Origin: Calditrichales bacterium MX18-03
Lineage (GTDB): Bacteria > Bacillota > Clostridia > Lutisporales > Lutisporaceae
NCBI GenBank assembly: GCA_021083345.1
Contig: JAJGRE010000003.1
Location: forward strand, 372,001-436,000
Length of the DNA stretch: 64,000 nt
Direction: 5' to 3'
Under the pieces are notes generated by a model. It worked only from the letters and a program-made list of their open reading frames with translations, did not search any database and was not told the origin of the DNA. How positions within the stretch are numbered: the stretch's first letter is position 1; the number at the start of each line of letters is the position of its first letter. Positions 2,571-12,404 of this stretch are shown here, piece after piece. The position numbers and the translations under genes are program-made.

Positions 2571-4538
2571 TTAACCTTCATAAACGCGCGCCAGGTCGCT
2601 GTCATATTTTTCTGCCGTCTGGCGGTGTATTTTGAGCTTCCAAGCCCGCTTTTCCAGTCTGTCCAAAAGCTTTTTCGCCGCACTGGCAGGATCCGTATCA
2701 AATATAAAGTAACCGCCGAATACGTCTCTGGCTATCTGTGTCGCAACGCCGTACACCAACTCGCTGCCCTCGATTGGAGGCAGTACGCCGACATGAGTCG
2801 GTATTCCCATGGATATGACCCATGAACCGATGGAAATTGCCTTCTCTGACATGGCTTCCGGTGCACTGGCTACGAAAGGCAGCTGTGGTACGGTAATTTT
2901 CAGTTCTTCTGCCATGGCCGTCCATAGGTTCGCAATTCTTGTATTGTCAACACAGGAGCCCATATGGAATACCAGCGGCAGGCCTGCGTTCAGACCTGAT
3001 TTTTCTTCCAGCCTCTTGATGAACTTCTTCAAGCCTGGTCCGGCATAAGCTTCAACGCCTTCCGCCGAGAGCAGTCCCGCTTTTGCAAATGCACCGGCTG
3101 CGCAGCCTGTGGATACCAGGAAGACATCATTTCTTGCCAGTTCCTTTGCAATTTCAACAGATGCATGGTCATGGACCACCTTCTGGTTATTGCAGCCGGC
3201 GAAGCCGCATACCCCTTTGATTTCTCCGGCCAGAATGGCATCCGTCAGTACGCTGATGGGAGAATCCGGGTTAAGTTTTCCAAACAGATCCATCATGGTT
3301 TCAAAGCTGAAGCCGCCTACAACCTGTTTTTTATACGGTGGTATCTTGATTAGCTCAGGCTTTCTTTTTTTGTAGCGCTCTATAGCATGCCTGACGATTT
3401 TCTTGGCGTCTTCCATTGCTGTTGCTTCGTTGAACTCAATGTGAATAGAACCGGGAACCTTGGAAATATGCGAAGTCGAAACCAGGTGCGTATGGAAGCA
3501 GTTGCACAGGTCTTTCACTGCAGGCGCTATGCACTGTACGTCCATGATCATGGTGTCCAGTACGCCCGTCATGATGGCCAATTCCTGTGAACCGAAGTTG
3601 GTAGCTGTCGGCACACCTTCCCTCATCAGGACTTCATTGCCGGTGCAGCAGATGCCAACAAGGTTGATCCCTTTGGCCCCGATTGCAATGGCTTCGCCTT
3701 CCAGTTCTCTGGCTGCATAGACCACCATCTGACTGAGCAGCGGATTGTGTCCGTGTACGGCGATATTAACCTTCTCCGCATCCAGAACACCCAGATTAGC
3801 CTCCGTGACAACAGGTGTCGGTGTACCGAACAGGATATCAGTCAAGTCTGTAGCCAGGCTCATTCCCGTATAATCCGCCAATGCAGCCCTGAGACCGCCG
3901 AATATGATATTGACGGGGTCCGCATCCGTGCCTATATGGGTCTGATGCAGCAACTGTGCAATGGATCTGTCTATTGCAGTGGGTGCAATGGTGGTGTGCT
4001 TGAACTTGCGGTTCCTTTCCTCATCAATATTGGTGGTAAGCCAGGCGCAGGGCTCGCTGTCATACTTTCCGAAATCCTCCAACGCCTTGATGGCCACGCT
4101 TCTGGCTATATCGTTCAGTTCTCTTCCTTCGGTTTCAATACCGACTTTTTTTGCCACCTTCAGCAGCTTGTTCTTGTCGGTGATCTTATAATCCGGTGCA
4201 TGTCCTTCCGCCGTATGTAGGAGCGTATACGCAATTTCCCTGCCATGGTCCGAGTGGGCAGAAGCACCGCCTGCGATGTACCTGACCAGGTTTCTTGCTA
4301 CGATGGTGTATACACTGGCGCCGCATATCCCTTTGTCCATGCCTGGCTTTGTAGGAACAATCCTACAGGGTCCTTGTATACAGATGCGGCAGCATACGCC
4401 TGTGTTGCCGAATTTGCATTGGGGCTGCTGTGCCTTGTACCTGTCCCAGGCTGTCTGTATGCCTGCTGCCGCTGCAGCTTCCAGCATCTCTACCGCTGCC
4501 GGATCAATGGTTCTTCTATCGGGTGTTTGTGTTGACAT
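2571..4538 (-). CDS. cooS: Anaerobic carbon monoxide dehydrogenase catalytic subunit
   Basis: 655-residue nickel-iron CO dehydrogenase (also called AcsA in acetogens), which interconverts CO2 and CO and supplies CO to AcsB. The N-terminal cysteines at 41, 49, 50, 53 and 58 (CKFGNTGVCC...C...C) match the D- and B-cluster ligands. C-cluster ligands appear in order further on: GICCTGNEV, CGFAGCNN, STGCAAG and HMGSCVDN. The start at 4538 follows a GTAGGAGGTAG site. Because acsB is adjacent and downstream, I assign it to the ACS-type CODH rather than a hydrogen-evolving CODH; no hydrogenase genes are near. Confidence 0.97.
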   Translation of the reverse strand: MSTQTPDRRTIDPAAVEMLEAAAAAGIQTAWDRYKAQQPQCKFGNTGVCCRICIQGPCRIVPTKPGMDKGICGASVYTIVARNLVRYIAGGASAHSDHGREIAYTLLHTAEGHAPDYKITDKNKLLKVAKKVGIETEGRELNDIARSVAIKALEDFGKYDSEPCAWLTTNIDEERNRKFKHTTIAPTAIDRSIAQLLHQTHIGTDADPVNIIFGGLRAALADYTGMSLATDLTDILFGTPTPVVTEANLGVLDAEKVNIAVHGHNPLLSQMVVYAARELEGEAIAIGAKGINLVGICCTGNEVLMREGVPTATNFGSQELAIMTGVLDTMIMDVQCIAPAVKDLCNCFHTHLVSTSHISKVPGSIHIEFNEATAMEDAKKIVRHAIERYKKRKPELIKIPPYKKQVVGGFSFETMMDLFGKLNPDSPISVLTDAILAGEIKGVCGFAGCNNQKVVHDHASVEIAKELARNDVFLVSTGCAAGAFAKAGLLSAEGVEAYAGPGLKKFIKRLEEKSGLNAGLPLVFHMGSCVDNTRIANLWTAMAEELKITVPQLPFVASAPEAMSEKAISIGSWVISMGIPTHVGVLPPIEGSELVYGVATQIARDVFGGYFIFDTDPASAAKKLLDRLEKRAWKLKIHRQTAEKYDSDLARVYEG

Positions 4539-4736: not shown

Positions 4737-5489
4737 TTAACCGATCACCTTGGTCAGTATCTCTTCCAGTTCTTTATTATCCAATTGCCTGTTCCCGCTG
4801 TCCTGTGGAAGCCCCATGGCTTTTTCGCTGATAGCCTCGTCATAGTGCACGACGCCCAGAAGCTCCTGTTTGTTGAAGCTTTCCTGGATAAAGGCTTCTT
4901 CCTTTTCCGTCCTGACCTTGTTTGCGATAAACCGGACCTTCTTCACCTTCAGGTCCTCGGCCAGGTTTTCTACGATTCTGGCCGTCTGTACGCTGGATTT
5001 GCTTGCCTCCGTCACGATAAGCATCAGGTCCACGCCCTGTGATGTGCCTCTCGTCAGATGCTCAATTCCGGCACCCATATCCAGGATGACCACATCCCGC
5101 GTATCCAGCAGCAGCGAATTGACGATGGCCCTCAGAAATGTGTTTTCCCTGCAGTAACAGTTGGAGCCGCCCTGCTTGATGCCTCCCATCCTCAGAAATT
5201 TGATGCCGTCCTTTCGGATGCTGAACCGGTCCGCTATATCATTGACCAGGGGATTCAAGGTATAGAATGCGCCGTCCCCTGCCATATCCCCTATAAGATC
5301 CCTCATTTCGATCACCGGCTTGATCCTGGCCAGCTGATCCTCACTGATCCCCAGTGCCAGCCCCAAACTGCTGTCGGGATCCGCATCAACTGCGTACACA
5401 TTGTAGCCTCTGCTGGCAAATAGCTTTGCCAGATTGGCGGAAACCGTGGTCTTGCCTACGCCACCTTTTCCTGAAACAGCAATTTTCAT
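4737..5489 (-). CDS. cooC: CO dehydrogenase nickel-insertion ATPase
   Basis: 250-residue P-loop ATPase of the MinD/NifH superfamily that helps load nickel into CODH or ACS. The signature-lysine Walker A motif GKGGVGKTT sits at residues 7-15. A CYC motif (GSNCYCRENTF) near residue 115 is the metal-binding dimer site known for CooC. I chose the ATG at 5489 because it follows GGAGGAACC and gives the canonical MKIAVSGKGG start. The longer upstream frame overlaps the previous gene. Start and upstream stop overlap as ATGA, so translation is probably coupled to the DUF3786 gene. Confidence 0.95.
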   Translation of the reverse strand: MKIAVSGKGGVGKTTVSANLAKLFASRGYNVYAVDADPDSSLGLALGISEDQLARIKPVIEMRDLIGDMAGDGAFYTLNPLVNDIADRFSIRKDGIKFLRMGGIKQGGSNCYCRENTFLRAIVNSLLLDTRDVVILDMGAGIEHLTRGTSQGVDLMLIVTEASKSSVQTARIVENLAEDLKVKKVRFIANKVRTEKEEAFIQESFNKQELLGVVHYDEAISEKAMGLPQDSGNRQLDNKELEEILTKVIG

Positions 5490-6136
5490 TGGTTCCTCCC
5501 TCCGCCGCTTTTGGCGGCTGCCATCAGTGCATACACCCCAAAACTGGCGGCGCACACAATATCTTCAGCCGGTAAAAAGCTTTCTATAGATTCATCAAAC
5601 AGGATGGTCCCTGAAGCAGCTATCTCTTCATCACCTTGCCATACCACATAAGTAACAGGAACCATGGGCAATACCTTGGCGGTAATGCTTGCATGCCCAT
5701 AGCGCTCAACCTCACCATCCAGCAGTGAGGCAGCTTTATAAAAAACTTCAAGATTGTTTGCGAAAGTCTTTACGAGGGGTGTGATTGCCCTTTTGTGAAA
5801 GGTCTGATAATAGATGGCTGCGCCGCTTTTAAGTTCCTTAAAGGATATTAGCCTGCCGGTCAGCGGCTTGTTTTGGGCATTCAAGAGATAATGAAGCAGC
5901 AGCACCTTGGTTGTATTAGGTACTTCTTCCCGGGTGCCTTCGAGGCTCACCTCGCCGGTCCGGCTGTCCACCTTGTATTCTCTGTTGAGATAGGTCAAAC
6001 GAAATGAACTGCTTTCTTTACCGAAAGCAGCATTGGAATTCATACAGATTTGTTCCGGGTCTCTGCTTGCCAATTCTTCACACGCCAGTTTATAAGCCGA
6101 TAGATATCCCTTCATGAGATTCATTTCCATTTCCAT
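5486..6136 (-). CDS. DUF3786 family protein
   Basis: 216-residue soluble protein matching the DUF3786 family by its central block (TTKVLLLHYLLNAQ, then LISFKEL, GAAIYYQTFHKRAITPL). This family recurs beside CODH, cobalamin and corrinoid genes in anaerobes, but its biochemical role is not established. No cysteine motif or membrane segment is evident. The start at 6136 has an ACGAGGTAAG site. It opens the DUF3786-cooC transcription unit, downstream of a terminator that closes the cooT operon. The link to CODH maturation is inferred from coupling with cooC. Confidence 0.75.
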   Translation of the reverse strand: MEMEMNLMKGYLSAYKLACEELASRDPEQICMNSNAAFGKESSSFRLTYLNREYKVDSRTGEVSLEGTREEVPNTTKVLLLHYLLNAQNKPLTGRLISFKELKSGAAIYYQTFHKRAITPLVKTFANNLEVFYKAASLLDGEVERYGHASITAKVLPMVPVTYVVWQGDEEIAASGTILFDESIESFLPAEDIVCAASFGVYALMAAAKSGGGRNQ

Positions 6137-6341: not shown

Positions 6342-6536
6342 CTATTCCTTTTCCTCCAGGATGACCTTATGGTCAACCAGTGCCATTTCCTTGATCCTTG
6401 CCTTGACTTTGATCCGTTTGCAGAAGATGTTTTCAAGGAAAATCTCGTCTGCCTCCGGGATGATCTTGTCTACTGACTCCAGCAAAAGCTTTTCGTTCCC
6501 GTTCTTATCTATCAAATATACATTTGCTTCACACAT
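6342..6536 (-). CDS. cooT: CooT-type nickel-binding protein
   Basis: 64-residue protein starting MCEANVYLIDKNG, typical of the small CooT family, where Cys2 takes part in nickel binding and the protein supports CODH maturation. The ATG at 6536 is preferred over the in-frame GTG at 6545. It places Cys directly after Met, as in the family, and lies at good spacing from AAGGAGTG. The start overlaps the end of the DUF3842 gene by 8 bases. A terminator follows. Neighbouring metal transport and CODH genes fit a nickel role. Confidence 0.8.
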   Translation of the reverse strand: MCEANVYLIDKNGNEKLLLESVDKIIPEADEIFLENIFCKRIKVKARIKEMALVDHKVILEEKE

Positions 6537-6954
6537 TCCTATCACTCCTTATCATCTGCTCCAGCATACTTGCCAAATCCTCTATGTAATGGGGCAGCGG
6601 CTCGTTCTGCATGCCCGCCATAAAGATATTGCAACGGTTGAGCGGTATCAGCAGCTTCTTAGCCGGGCTCTCGGCAACGGCATTCGCGGCTCTTGGTGTC
6701 ATCTCGCCCAGCATTGAGTTGGGTACGATGATAGCCACTGTACCGGCAATGACATCCACCTTTGCAGCATTCTGTGCGATGGCATTCTCACCCGAAGCGC
6801 CCTCGTTGGCACCTGCCTTCAGCATCAAGGCGGTTGCAAGCGCATTGGTGCCCAGTGCCAGTATCTCAATTTCTTCTCCAAAGGACTTCCTCAGCTTTTC
6901 AACAATGGCCTTTCCGATTCCGCCGCCCTGCCCGTCGATTACTGCAATCCGCAT
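6529..6954 (-). CDS. DUF3842 family protein
   Basis: 141-residue protein with a glycine-rich start, MRIAVIDGQGGGIGKAIVEKL, resembling a nucleotide-binding Rossmann turn, which is diagnostic of DUF3842. The rest alternates short strands and Ala-rich helices and ends with a single Cys segment (NRCNIFMAGM). Function is unknown. Overlap with cooT downstream and closeness to cbiO suggest a role in metal or CODH handling, but nothing in the sequence proves it. Confidence 0.7.
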   Translation of the reverse strand: MRIAVIDGQGGGIGKAIVEKLRKSFGEEIEILALGTNALATALMLKAGANEGASGENAIAQNAAKVDVIAGTVAIIVPNSMLGEMTPRAANAVAESPAKKLLIPLNRCNIFMAGMQNEPLPHYIEDLASMLEQMIRSDRNV

Positions 6955-7040: not shown

Positions 7041-7826
7041 CTACTTTTTTGAATGCTGGTGCTGCTGCGGCATTGCTTTACTGCCACAGACCGGGCAGTT
7101 CTGAAGGGCAAAAGGAAGCTCAAGCCCGCACGCATCCATTAGCGCTTCGTCGGCAAGAATTTCGACCGTAGGTCCGTCTGCGGCGATTTCGCCCCCCTTA
7201 ACCACAATGGTCCTTTCACAGAGGTCATAGATCATATCCAGATCGTGGCTGGTAATGAGCTTGGTATGCTCAAAGCTTTGAAGCAAACCCATCATGCGCC
7301 GCCGGGACTTGGGATCCAGGCCTGCTGAAGGCTCATCCATGATCAAGATATCCGGCTGCATGGACAGCACGGCGGCAATGGCAGCTGCCCGCTTCTCACC
7401 GCCCGAAAGCCGGAATGGCGCCCTATCCTTTAAGTGGGTGATGCCCACATGGTCCAAGGCAGTCATTACCCTTGCCTCCACTTCCTTTTCGCTCAGCTTG
7501 TAGTTGCGCGGACCAAAGGCTACGTCCTCATACACCGTGGTCATAAAAAGCTGATCATCGGGGTTCTGAAAAACCATCCCCATCCTTTCCCGGATCATCG
7601 GCAGGGTCTTCTTTGTCACTTCAACATCTCCTACAAGGATCATTCCCTTCTGCGGGAGCAGTATACCCATCAGCAGAAGCAACAATGTGGATTTACCGGC
7701 TCCGTTGGCGCCGATGATCCCGATTGACTCCCCGTGGCGAGCGCTGAAGGATATCCCGTTAACCGCCTTATGTCTGTCGGGATATGCAAAATGCAGTTCC
7801 CGCACCTCAAGCTTATGATGGCTCAT
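7041..7826 (-). CDS. cbiO: Cobalt/nickel ECF transporter ATPase
   Basis: 261-residue ABC ATPase energising the ECF-type cobalt or nickel importer. Walker A is GANGAGKST (about 40-48), the signature is LSGGEKR and Walker B is DILIMDEPSAGLD. The C-terminal tail is unusual: CPVCGSKAMPQQHQHSKK adds a CxxC and three histidines after the ATPase fold, a likely metal-binding appendage. The ATG at 7826 overlaps the cbiQ stop by 4 bases. Whether the cargo is cobalt (for the corrinoid protein) or nickel (for CODH/ACS) cannot be decided here. Confidence 0.9.
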   Translation of the reverse strand: MSHHKLEVRELHFAYPDRHKAVNGISFSARHGESIGIIGANGAGKSTLLLLLMGILLPQKGMILVGDVEVTKKTLPMIRERMGMVFQNPDDQLFMTTVYEDVAFGPRNYKLSEKEVEARVMTALDHVGITHLKDRAPFRLSGGEKRAAAIAAVLSMQPDILIMDEPSAGLDPKSRRRMMGLLQSFEHTKLITSHDLDMIYDLCERTIVVKGGEIAADGPTVEILADEALMDACGLELPFALQNCPVCGSKAMPQQHQHSKK

Positions 7827-8644
7827 TTTATCCCTCCCGTCACAACCAGTCCGAGCAGCCCAGGTATATCTACAAATCTAACGATAATGAAGAACATCAC
7901 CCATACTGCCATATAAGCCAGATCAGTCGTGCAAAAACGCTGCCCGTCACCTGTTCGGTACTCACCGTCAAAGCCTCTTAAACACATCGCACCGTATACT
8001 GACTGCGCCCGCTCAAAAGTCCGCAGAATAAGCTGTCCCGCCAGGGAACCCCAGGACTTCCAATGGATCCCTTTCTGACCGGGTGCTCTGAGGGCATAGG
8101 CATTCAGGATGCGCCCTACCTCCTCCAGAAGCACCGAGATATACCGGTATGTCAGCGTCAGCTGCAGGACAAACAGCTTGGGGATACCCAGCATCCTTAA
8201 AGCCGATGCCAGTCTGTCCATACCTGTGGTTGCAAGTAATATCAGCGCGGCAGCCACTGTCAGACCGCATTTGATGAATATGGAGAGAAACGTAATCCAG
8301 CCTCTGGATACGGCAACCCCGCCCAGCATCACTATGTGCTGGTCGAATAATGGGTTAAGTATTCCGATACCGATAATAAAGGGTTCAACCATGAGTATTC
8401 TTTTCACCATAGGCTTTATAGGAAGCTCTGCCAAAGCAAACACAATGACCGGATAAAAAAAGAAAGGCAGCAGCCCGCTTATTTCATACCTCTCCACCGA
8501 AACGACAGCAGCCAGAAAAGCCAGCGTCGACGCCAGCTTTGCAAGGGGATGAAGCCTGTGCACCAAGGTATTCCGTCGGGCAAGGTCATCCATGAACCGC
8601 ATGTTGTATAAAGCTTCCGAAATATTTGACATATCAGCACTCAA
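7823..8644 (-). CDS. cbiQ: Cobalt/nickel ECF transporter transmembrane protein
   Basis: 273-residue membrane protein, the T component coupling CbiO to the CbiM substrate-binding subunit. It has several hydrophobic segments (for example around residues 33-60 and 100-140). The coupling-helix region ALRAPGQKGIHWKSWG and the later AMCLRGFDG carry the A-R-G-type motifs of the family. Its start overlaps the end of cbiM and its stop overlaps cbiO, giving a tightly coupled M-Q-O order. Confidence 0.9.
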   Translation of the reverse strand: MSADMSNISEALYNMRFMDDLARRNTLVHRLHPLAKLASTLAFLAAVVSVERYEISGLLPFFFYPVIVFALAELPIKPMVKRILMVEPFIIGIGILNPLFDQHIVMLGGVAVSRGWITFLSIFIKCGLTVAAALILLATTGMDRLASALRMLGIPKLFVLQLTLTYRYISVLLEEVGRILNAYALRAPGQKGIHWKSWGSLAGQLILRTFERAQSVYGAMCLRGFDGEYRTGDGQRFCTTDLAYMAVWVMFFIIVRFVDIPGLLGLVVTGGIK

Positions 8645-9686
8645 ATCCTGCTCTTTTTCTTCTCTTCTTGATCATGTTGATGGTCAAGCCTGTCAGTGCT
8701 GCTGCAAGCAGCGTCAGCCCCCCTCCTAAGATACCGGAAACACTGGTTCCGGCATTGACCACGGGCCAGGCTTCTTCACCAGCGGCAGACGCCTCTTCAG
8801 AATCTGATGCTTTAAAGCTGTAGTCAGGTAAAAATGCCGTCTTGCTTTGTATATCGGACAATACGGCGTGAAGCTTATTTGTTGCTTCAAGTTCTGCCGT
8901 TCCTGCCGTTTTGAGCATTGCCCATTCCAGGCCGTCTGGATTTGCAGAGGCAAACCAGGAAAAAACACCGCCCACCAGGAGAACTGCAATCAGCAGCCCC
9001 GTCAGGACCTTTCTTGTGGAAATGCTGCCCAATGCTTTCTCTTTGGCGACATTTTCCAGTATATCCGGACTGGCCTTCCAGACAAAAGCAACCACTGCTG
9101 CCGTGACAAGTCCTTCCACCAACCCAATCGCAAGATGAATCGGCTGCATAAGCATAACGAAGGTCCCAAAAGGCAGCTCCGTCTTACCCGAAAAAACCGT
9201 TTGCAGGACAACACTGAATGCACCTAATTGCAGTCCTAACAATGTAGAAAGCAGTGATGCTGCAAAAATGCGCTTTTCAGAGTGGCCGTTCCGGGTCAAA
9301 CGCTTATATATCAACGGATATGCAATAAAACAAGTATAAAAGCCCAGGTTGAAAACATTGCAGCCAAAGGCCAGCAAGCCGCCATCCGCAAAGAAAAGCG
9401 CCTGTATGGCCAGTATGGAGGCCATTGTAAGAAAACCGGCCTGTGGTCCAAGCAGAACCGCAAGCAGCAGGCCGCCGCCGATATGCCCGCTGGAGCCGGT
9501 TCCGGGTATGGAAAAGTTTATCATCTGAGCTGCAAATACAAAGGCACCCATGACACCCATCATTGGGATTTTTTTCTCATCCAGGTCTACCTGTATCTTC
9601 TTCATGGAATAGGCTGCAACGCCTGAGGTCGCCGCCCACATTGCACCGCCTACCGCCGGTGAGATCAAGGCATCTGCCATATGCAT
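8634..9686 (-). CDS. cbiM: Cobalt/nickel ECF substrate-binding protein, CbiM-CbiN fusion
   Basis: 350-residue protein. Residues 1-210 are CbiM, with the N-terminal MHMADALISP whose histidine coordinates the metal, and GTGSSGHIGGGLL further on. Residues about 225-350 are a CbiN/NikN-like part, with one membrane segment (VLTGLLIAVLLVGGVFSW), an extracytoplasmic loop containing NPDGLEWAML, and a closing membrane helix. The ATG at 9686 is chosen over an upstream TTG because it gives the conserved Met-His start and sits 8-9 bases after AGGAG. It heads the operon behind a structured leader. Confidence 0.9.
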   Translation of the reverse strand: MHMADALISPAVGGAMWAATSGVAAYSMKKIQVDLDEKKIPMMGVMGAFVFAAQMINFSIPGTGSSGHIGGGLLLAVLLGPQAGFLTMASILAIQALFFADGGLLAFGCNVFNLGFYTCFIAYPLIYKRLTRNGHSEKRIFAASLLSTLLGLQLGAFSVVLQTVFSGKTELPFGTFVMLMQPIHLAIGLVEGLVTAAVVAFVWKASPDILENVAKEKALGSISTRKVLTGLLIAVLLVGGVFSWFASANPDGLEWAMLKTAGTAELEATNKLHAVLSDIQSKTAFLPDYSFKASDSEEASAAGEEAWPVVNAGTSVSGILGGGLTLLAAALTGLTINMIKKRRKRAGFEC

Positions 9687-9806
9687 CAATATCAACTCCT
9701 CAAAAAAATATAGACCGATAAAGGTGCCGTTTATAGACTAGCCCCTTCATGGGTCTATTGTTAATCCTCAGATATACGCGAGCAGAAACCTTCATGGTTC
9801 CCATAT
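9687..9806 (-). promoter_or_regulatory. Structured leader of the cbiM operon, possible riboswitch
   Basis: About 120 bases of untranslated leader. On the minus strand two small hairpins share the core CCATGAAGG (9789-9797 and 9744-9752, 45 bases apart). One copy of ATAGACC can pair either with a nearby GTCTAT or with a later GGTCTAT that is followed by a run of seven Ts just before the ribosome binding site. This is the layout of an antiterminator/terminator switch. I see no B12 box, so it is not an obvious cobalamin riboswitch. A metal-sensing class is possible but unproven. Confidence 0.5.
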
Positions 9807-9812
9807 AAAACC

Positions 9813-9842
9813 AATATAGCACATCACATATTCCCTTGTCAA
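9813..9842 (-). promoter_or_regulatory. Promoter of the cbiM operon
   Basis: On the minus strand TTGACA (9837-9842) and TATATT (9813-9818) are separated by 18 bases. This is a good sigma-A type promoter that would start the leader near 9805. The -35 box overlaps the end of the degenerate kinase gene. Confidence 0.7.
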
Positions 9843-10168
9843 TTAACGTTATAAATATCAGAAAACTCAACATTGATTCTCTCAGCCAGGCTGCGGTCGG
9901 AACAGCAATGCTGCTTCACATCAGGTACTTTTCCCACTGTGTCGTGCTCCTGTTTGACCAGTTCATAGTGACCCGCGCTGATTTTTGTGATATCAAGCAA
10001 GCTGTCCACAGCCGGACCAACCTCAGGCCGTTCTGCTTCATTGCCTTTAGAGCTTCTTAACGGATGCTTTCTCTATCGGCAAATCACTGCTGAAGTACAA
10101 GTTCAGAAGTTGGACAGCACTGAGTATCACATTCAGCGGCGTCCGCAGTTCATGGGATATATTGGCCA
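9839..10168 (-). pseudogene. Histidine kinase remnant with frameshifts and internal deletion
   Basis: Directly after the stop of the intact kinase, another frame reads NLANISHELRTPLNVILSAV, a kinase H-box, and stops at TAA. In a shifted frame follows MKQNGLRLVR, then a second shift leads to VDSLLDITKISAG. The remnant ends INVEFSDIYNVN, close to the intact kinase's tail EIEFSDIYF. The ATPase domain is missing. So this is a decayed paralogue with at least two frameshifts and a deletion, probably from a former tandem pair. Confidence 0.8.
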
Positions 10169-10170
10169 GG

Positions 10171-12249
10171 TTAAAAATAGATGTCGGAAAACTCTATTTC
10201 GGCTTTCTTCGTGTTCAGCATTTCTGTCACGTGCTTATCATCCACATCCTCAAGCAGGATGACCGGCAGCAGAATTTCAAACACGCTGCCTTTTCCATAA
10301 GTACTTTCCACACTGATGGATCCGCCATGAAGCTCAACCAGGGATTTTACCAGGGACAAGCCTATCCCGCTGCCTTCACTGACTCTGGAAATGGATTTGT
10401 CCACCTGCCTGAACCGATCGAATATCAACCCTTGCTTGTCTTTTGGAATCCCTATACCGGTATCTCTGACAGAAATCCGGATATGCTTTTCACCGTCCTG
10501 AATCCTGACGAAAATGCTTCCGCCCTTCTGAGTAAACTTCACACTATTTGAAAGCAAGTTCAAAATGACTCGCTCGATTTTCTCGGCGTCGCATGCCATC
10601 ATTTTCTCTTCCACGTCGGTGTCAAACTCTATATTGATTCCCTTGTTCTCAATCAATGCAGCAACGGACATCGTTGCATCCTCAATAATGCTGACGATAT
10701 TCTGATTCTTCTGCTGCAACTGCAGAAAGCCGGTGTCTGCCTTGGTAATATCGATTATATTGTTGACAAGCCTTGACAGCCTGTTTACATTCTGTTTGAT
10801 GCTGGTTATGGACTTGGCTATGCCATCCTTTATATCCTGCTGGGTGCCGCCCCTGGCCTTAAGCTCCAGAAGCTGTGCTGCAGCCAGGATCACGCTTAAG
10901 GGTGTCCTGAATTCATGGGACATGTTGGCGAAAAACTCTGTTTTAAGCTTGTCATATTCCTTGGCTTCATTCAGGAGCTTACGCTCCGTATAGTCATGCA
11001 GCACGATGATGATCCCTTCGACTTTTTCCTCCGGTCCCTTTATGGGATAAATGCTACACTCAATATTTATGGTTCCCTTACTGCCTTTCTCCCATATCAG
11101 GCTTTTCTTCCAGACGCTGCCTTGTATGGCTTGCAGGCACCCCTCGTATATAAAGCTGCTGTCCGCTTTGAAGCTTTCAATGGTCAGGCTTTCTTCCTTA
11201 TCGATCTGCAGCAGCTCCTTTGCAGCATGGTTTGCTCCTAGCACCTCCCCCTCTGTACTGAAGGCAATGATGCCGTCCAATATGCTCTCCAGGATTTTCC
11301 CTCTTAACCGGCTGCTTTGCTCCAGTCTTTCCTGCTGCCTGTACAATTCCTGGTTGACTGCTGCCAGCTCACTTGTCCTGCTATCGACGATTTTTTTCAA
11401 GCTTCTGTTCCAGTAGAACACCATGGAAATAACGATGATGACAACGACCAGTATGGAATTGACAATGATGATCAGTTTTTTCCATAGAATGCTGCGGTCG
11501 GTGACTGTCTCACCGAACCACTTGTTGTATATCCTGTCGTATTCTCCATTCTGCTTTAGCTTGCCGAGGCCTGTATTCAGCAGGCCGAGCAGCACTTCGT
11601 TTCCCTTCTGTGTTGCGGCGCAATATTCAGTGATATATAGCGGCTCTCCCACAATTTTGATCTTGTCGAACTGCTTCAGGCTTTGCAGTATGTAAAGGCC
11701 GGTAAGCCTGTTCCCGACGAAAGCATCTACCGTACCGTCAAGCAGTGCCCTTATAGCCTGTTCCTGATTGCTGTATATGATGACCTGCACCTCCGGTATC
11801 CTCTCCACCAGCTCTTCGCTGATATCTCCCGATTGTATTGCTATCGTGGATCCCTTAAGGTCATGCAGTTCTACGATGTTATCCGTCCCCTGCCTCACAA
11901 AAATTACCTGTGCATTTTGGAGCAGCGCATTGGTAAAGCTGAATTTCTCTTCTCTGCTGGCACTTCGGGTCATTCCTTGTATGGCATCCACTTTCCCTGC
12001 TTCAAGTGCTTCCAGAGCATCCTGCCATGGCATGGGTCTTATTTCCACACGGACTCCCAATTCATCCGATAACGCTTTCATCACATCAATATTAAAGCCT
12101 TTATAGGCACCGTTTTTGTCTACAAACTCATAGGGCGGATAGTTTTCATCTCCTGCTACTATAACGGTGGGGTGTACATCTGCACTTGCCTGTAGCAGCG
12201 CAAAAAAAATGACCGGTATCAAAAGCAGGATCCAATAGGTCTTTCTCAT
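10171..12249 (-). CDS. Membrane histidine kinase with solute-binding sensor domain
   Basis: 692-residue sensor kinase. Order: signal segment (about 1-22), a family-3 extracytoplasmic solute-binding domain (about 27-250, VIVAGDENYPPYEFVDKNG...), one membrane helix (about 265-287), a PAS domain, HisKA with the phospho-accepting His in ANMSHEFRTPLSV, and an ATPase with NLLSNSVKFT and GSGIGLSLV. The ATG at 12249 lies after AGAGGTG. An EvgS-like small-molecule sensor is the best description. No response regulator is adjacent, and the next gene downstream is a decayed kinase. Confidence 0.9.
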   Translation of the reverse strand: MRKTYWILLLIPVIFFALLQASADVHPTVIVAGDENYPPYEFVDKNGAYKGFNIDVMKALSDELGVRVEIRPMPWQDALEALEAGKVDAIQGMTRSASREEKFSFTNALLQNAQVIFVRQGTDNIVELHDLKGSTIAIQSGDISEELVERIPEVQVIIYSNQEQAIRALLDGTVDAFVGNRLTGLYILQSLKQFDKIKIVGEPLYITEYCAATQKGNEVLLGLLNTGLGKLKQNGEYDRIYNKWFGETVTDRSILWKKLIIIVNSILVVVIIVISMVFYWNRSLKKIVDSRTSELAAVNQELYRQQERLEQSSRLRGKILESILDGIIAFSTEGEVLGANHAAKELLQIDKEESLTIESFKADSSFIYEGCLQAIQGSVWKKSLIWEKGSKGTINIECSIYPIKGPEEKVEGIIIVLHDYTERKLLNEAKEYDKLKTEFFANMSHEFRTPLSVILAAAQLLELKARGGTQQDIKDGIAKSITSIKQNVNRLSRLVNNIIDITKADTGFLQLQQKNQNIVSIIEDATMSVAALIENKGINIEFDTDVEEKMMACDAEKIERVILNLLSNSVKFTQKGGSIFVRIQDGEKHIRISVRDTGIGIPKDKQGLIFDRFRQVDKSISRVSEGSGIGLSLVKSLVELHGGSISVESTYGKGSVFEILLPVILLEDVDDKHVTEMLNTKKAEIEFSDIYF

Positions 12250-12404
12250 CAACGCAACACCTCTTTTGCTGGTATGTTAAAAGACTTTTTTCGTCATTTT
12301 CCTACAGCCTTCATCCTCATTATACCATGTTCTGCACATTACGGTAAATTAATTGACAGTTATTATCAGAAAAGAAATTGCTGCCGTTGCAGCATCAGAC
12401 CTGC

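Follow-up and report, generated by a model that had tools for sequence, protein, structure and literature searches.

The window, i.e., the whole stretch of 64,000 nt analyzed here, contains on its minus strand a leader (positions 9687-9806) directly ahead of the start codon of a cobalt/nickel-type importer gene. This raises the question whether the leader is a regulatory RNA, how such an RNA would act and which genes it would control.

Layout of the leader and its operon

The minus strand at the leader reads GGGAACCATGAAGGTTTC ... AATAGACCCATGAAGGGGCTAGTCTAT AAACGGCACCTTTATCGGTCTATATTTTTTT GAGGAG ... ATG. Its features are, from 5' to 3':

9813..9842 (-): sigma-70-type promoter TTGACA-18-TATATT with a TG ahead of the -10 element, from a consensus match
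9785..9801 (-): P1 hairpin GGAACC AUGAA GGUUUC, core CCATGAAGG at 9797-9789, from folding and covariation
9758..9784 (-): P1-P2 spacer, sequence and length unconserved in the alignments
9739..9757 (-): P2 hairpin, the proposed antiterminator, UAG-A-CCC AUGAA GGG-G-CUA, core CCATGAAGG at 9752-9744
9710..9758 (-): predicted intrinsic terminator hairpin, with P2 wholly within its 5' arm
9702..9708 (-): run of seven Ts 3' of the terminator, read from the sequence
9696..9701 (-): ribosome-binding site GAGGAG, by inspection

The first-pass annotation had described two hairpins of the same core, two GTCTAT copies and seven Ts, all of which are present on the minus strand. Both P1 and P2 are tipped by CC-AUGAA-GG. 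The promoter agrees with the consensus at 11/12 positions, where one site was found compared to 0.8 expected in shuffled sequences. Given this match, the transcript would start at about position 9806, i.e., just ahead of P1. Between the leader and an intact SBP3-PAS-kinase gene (10171-12252) lies what remains of another histidine kinase gene (9840-10170, minus strand), whose end carries the EFSDIY-like motif also found at the end of the intact one.

Folded alone, the terminator hairpin reaches -21.0 kcal/mol, where 0/200 dinucleotide shuffles were equally good (z = -5.15). Folding of the complete leader stands out less (z = -1.45). On energetic grounds, P2 and the terminator are mutually exclusive, because the 5' arm of the terminator is occupied by P2.

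That the leader is switch-like and precedes a cobalt/nickel-type importer, as the annotation had put it, holds: the expression platform is terminator-based and the gene encodes a fused NikMN/CbiM-type permease. The operon is composed as follows:

8634..9686 (-): fused NikMN (CbiM/CbiN-like) permease, ATG at 9686
7823..8644 (-): NikQ/CbiQ, ECF T component, TIGR02454 over cut-off
7041..7826 (-): NikO/CbiO, ECF ATPase, a family-level match under the equivalog cut-offs
6529..6954 (-): DUF3842 protein, PF12953 with E 1.3e-55
6342..6545 (-): CooT family nickel-binding protein, PF10133 with E 2.1e-22, closest solved structure 6fan CooT
5486..6136 (-): DUF3786 protein, PF12654
4737..5555 (-): CooC-like P-loop ATPase, PF01656 CbiA/ParA-type match

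By resemblance, the last of these may be CooC and act in nickel insertion. Besides the copy at 9687-9806, pattern and covariance searches identified no further element in the window's genome.

Relatives and conserved structure

To find relatives, we combined pattern and covariance searches, which together provide about 50 intergenic relatives of the leader in Bacillota. A search of 391 genomes of the class for a pair of CCATGAAGG cores at a distance of 23-53 nt yielded 14, and the intergenic ones among them (G000, G007, G140, G344, G308, G329) sit before NikMN or FmdE. Scanning 84,980 public genomes for CCATGAAGGTT...CCATGAAGG gave 58 matches; those neither coding nor within tandem repeats precede NikMN, LarE, DUF3842, FmdE or an ECF S component. 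Matches of a viral scan were coding or repeats only. A first covariance model, built from 14 members of the public scan, identified more members in 35/391 class genomes, variant loops included. A second model, built on 25 sequences, gave 46 matches in 36/398 genomes of the phylum compared to about 8 expected by chance, where the latter number derives from the E-value cut-off and E-values are rough given a short calibration. About five of the 46 looked spurious. Many of the searched genomes are metagenome bins.

Across the 25 distinct sequences, 97.3% of the P1 cells are paired and 4/6 pairs are changed on both sides; the outer pairs of P2 also show double changes in relatives. Over the structure, we count 43 double-change cells vs. 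16.9 in shuffles and a covariation of 0.372 vs. 0.173, with slid controls being far lower. RNAalifold independently recovers P1 and the P2 tip. For 50 members, the loop and its closing pairs follow the consensus Y-C-A-N-G-R-A-G-G, i.e., a pentaloop A-N-G-R-A. Since the core was prescribed in the initial pattern searches, the conserved loop of the members found that way is in part a product of the search; the covariance searches relaxed this constraint. The loop position N is unrestricted and shows no covariation between P1 and P2.

The cores are 21-82 nt apart (median 52 nt). Three hairpins of the same tip are found in seven loci (L091, L083, L067, L129, L200, L218, L221), while L202 carries two complete units in succession. 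An apparent single-hairpin form is seen in L140 (genome G377), where AAACCATGAAGGTTT directly overlaps a terminator and a Peripla_BP_2 ABC operon follows.

Next, we considered the overlap of P2 and terminator. A terminator that overlaps P2 and pairs with its core is found for 44/51 members compared to 26% with mononucleotide-shuffled downstream sequence. Similarly, the P2 core is complementary at at least 8/9 positions to the sequence ahead of the T tract in 39/50 members vs. 6.7% of dinucleotide shuffles. Members scored without terminator include the third-hairpin cases L136, L200 and L218. The overlap test also gave no terminator for the NikMN members L065 and L078, which may work in another way. 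In the NikMN leader of L011 (genome G015, 1530-1600), the 3' arm of the terminator (CCATCATGGGTTT) is kept, and what is left of the P2 core is CTCAGTATGGAG; this may be a lost element.

The annotation had further suggested that an ATAGACC segment can pair with either of the two GTCTAT copies. Of this, the competition of P2 and terminator is conserved, while the alternative with the first copy was unseen in the relatives inspected by eye and looks window-specific. In summary of the searches, the two-core layout is beyond chance: it recurs in other genomes with cores that are conserved, stems that covary and terminators that overlap.

Genes downstream of the element

One set of downstream genes comprises NikMN or CbiMNQO. 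The element is also found before NikA/NikB-type SBP_bac_5 ABC systems and before a weak NicO-like protein (under the Pfam cut-off). Other copies precede LarE, followed by LarB and LarC in L073, where the names of LarE, LarB, LarC and several other genes were assigned by reading the sequence and not by a curated model. LarE(-LarB-LarC) serve the nickel-pincer cofactor. Further targets are CooT, FmdE and DUF3842, the latter being the first gene 3' of the element in other genomes; in L063, the order is DUF3842-CooT-FmdE-CbiMNQO. A solved FmdE homologue from Desulfitobacterium carries mixed zinc/nickel at a His/Cys site (PMC2954224). Finally, copies are found before an ECF S component (PF12822), methyltransferases and Peripla_BP_2 transporters.

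Gene context provides good support for the link to nickel. As judged from sequence, the element class appears to control a whole nickel regulon, which is beyond what the annotation had guessed.

Known RNA classes and rival explanations

That the leader matches no known riboswitch is borne out by scans with Rfam 15: the whole window gave no match at gathering score, and for 9500-10100 at E up to 10 we find only two irrelevant sub-threshold matches. Likewise, in 20 relatives no Rfam covariance model matched at the position of the element. With covariation found across relatives and no Rfam family, the suggestion of an undescribed class stands. The variant cobalamin sensor proposed alongside is not supported: cobalamin riboswitches are commonly upstream of cobalt/nickel importers, but the window contains no match. 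In L230, a DUF3842 gene is preceded by a copy of the element, with two true cobalamin riboswitches (2705-2891 and 3670-3855, minus strand) flanking it as separate features. The NiCo (czcD) riboswitch is likewise a metal-related cis-regulatory RNA in Clostridia; its architecture is a four-way junction. The element, in contrast, consists of two hairpins, precedes uptake rather than export genes and has no Rfam match.

A direct sensor could nevertheless be formed if the A-N-G-R-A tips of the two hairpins dock onto each other, with Ni2+/Co2+ or the nickel-pincer nucleotide as the bound ligand, which we regard as rather unlikely. Such a riboswitch would explain that conserved residues are limited to two identical tips, that targets span nickel transport and nickel-pincer synthesis, that no Rfam class matches and that our co-occurrence tests gave no protein binder. 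Guanidine-II (mini-ykkC) is a precedent: its two tiny hairpins are identical, their short loop is conserved and the linker varies. Its loop is ACGR, unlike that of the element, which furthermore lacks an Rfam match, precedes nickel transport and assimilation genes and has a variable, non-covarying loop position 2. This free variation without P1-P2 covariation implies that there is no loop-loop pairing at that position. In addition, the spacing of 21-82 nt and the occurrence of three-hairpin and apparent single-hairpin forms speak against a riboswitch, and, since stabilization of P2 would antiterminate, binding of a ligand would activate importer and cofactor genes, i.e., the opposite of the usual feedback. 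The architecture is closest to the targets of phosphorylated ANTAR response regulators such as EutV, NasR and AmiR, which bind dual hairpins: two small hairpins separated by a variable spacer, a conserved loop A, sequence-specific closing pairs and a second hairpin that overlaps and excludes an intrinsic terminator (PMC3369931). But in ANTAR targets the loop has to be a hexaloop carrying A1 and G4, and the linker has to measure 5-12 nt, where extension to 14 impaired induction (PMC3369931), whereas we observe a pentaloop A-N-G-R-A with A1 and G3 and hairpins tens of nt apart (median core spacing 52 nt). Moreover, ANTAR targets precede ethanolamine, nitrate or amide genes and the element nickel genes. 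The domain (PF03861) was not found in the motif-bearing genomes G152 (a single contig, 99% complete), G007, G161, G205 and G329, and it shows no association with the element. We thus consider an ANTAR regulator very improbable and largely refuted as a general explanation.

Likewise very improbable is a pair of DNA operators, i.e., CCATGAAGG as a repressor-binding site with incidental hairpin potential. The core is short and partly symmetric, and the spacing in the window differs from that in L076 by 10 bp or about one helical turn; yet no helical phase is seen in the spacing elsewhere, the flanking stems covary, the terminator overlaps P2 in most members and, in the window, the sites are downstream of the promoter-like site. 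Finally, the modest z of whole-leader folding and the many coding or repeat matches of the exact-pattern scans could point to chance resemblance or an ordinary terminator without regulation. We give this a negligible probability, given that the intergenic, terminator-bearing matches all converge on nickel genes and covary.

Candidate binders

We also compared the occurrence of candidate binders and the element; respective numbers ignore phylogeny. ANTAR domains, of which the window's own genome encodes one protein, show a co-occurrence of 13/18 vs. 15/22 (Fisher p = 1.0). CooT is associated (13/18 vs. 3/22, one of the 13 being a weak partial match), yet missing from five motif-bearing genomes. 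DUF3842 is strongly associated (33/34 vs. 11/27), yet missing in G140, and 11 genomes have DUF3842 without an element near it. It is predicted to be Rossmann-like, with no fold match at E < 0.001 and no RNA-binding neighbor in the top list. The occurrence of CooT and DUF3842 thus follows that of the element, but neither of the two is required, nor does either suffice. FmdE was rejected as binder, being absent from the window's genome. Altogether, the tests of ANTAR, CooT, DUF3842 and FmdE singled out no binder, and no conserved regulator gene was seen upstream of the element. For NikR, no convincing copy was identified in the motif-bearing genomes tested: their NikR_C-like matches are weak (about 22-26 bits) and confined to short frames, with none in G000. 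A literature survey from 2009 infers NikR-independent nickel regulation (PMC2667541).

Proposed mechanism

Based on topology and gene context, we propose that the leader probably belongs to a nickel regulon and acts in cis by transcription antitermination, with a trans-acting factor that would operate on it at low nickel. By default, the much stronger terminator would win over P2 and transcription would stop. When nickel is scarce, the factor, most likely a dimeric RNA-binding protein, would grip both A-N-G-R-A tips and keep P2 closed, such that the terminator is blocked and RNA polymerase reads into nikMN. With P2 as antiterminator, its stabilization would turn the genes on. Importers should be switched on at low nickel; the factor would therefore be active without nickel, which argues against nickel itself as the stabilizing ligand. 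Protein-binding arrays typically look like this, with one hairpin present in identical copies, in some cases three, that are separated by spacers of varying length. Given the P2-terminator topology and one tiny repeated hairpin with little else conserved, a trans-acting factor fits at least as well as a riboswitch.

In either case, we likely face something new: a class of nickel- or nickel-pincer-nucleotide-sensing riboswitches with two 9-nt hairpin tips, or a family of nickel-responsive RNA-binding antiterminator proteins that replaces NikR in Clostridia and relatives. No published description of the element, DUF3842 or a nikM/larE leader was found in the open-access literature. Many nickel-dependent anaerobes (acetogens, users of CODH and hydrogenase) are without NikR; by naming a probable nickel regulon, the element makes their nickel sensing directly testable. 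The element also ties DUF3842, DUF3786, FmdE, an ECF S component and a methyltransferase family to nickel metabolism.

The uncharacterized ECF S component (PF12822) and the methyltransferases are regulon members at L057, L092, L131, L142, L208 and L235. A SAM-dependent methyltransferase follows the S component in L057, L092 and L131, while elsewhere methyltransferases stand alone. Contig C50 of G551 (139 kb, L200-L205) holds seven model matches and five of the genome's seven FmdE genes. Some of these matches precede genes of large surface proteins, of which one has a Cu amine oxidase N-terminal domain, and the contig looks like a nickel island.
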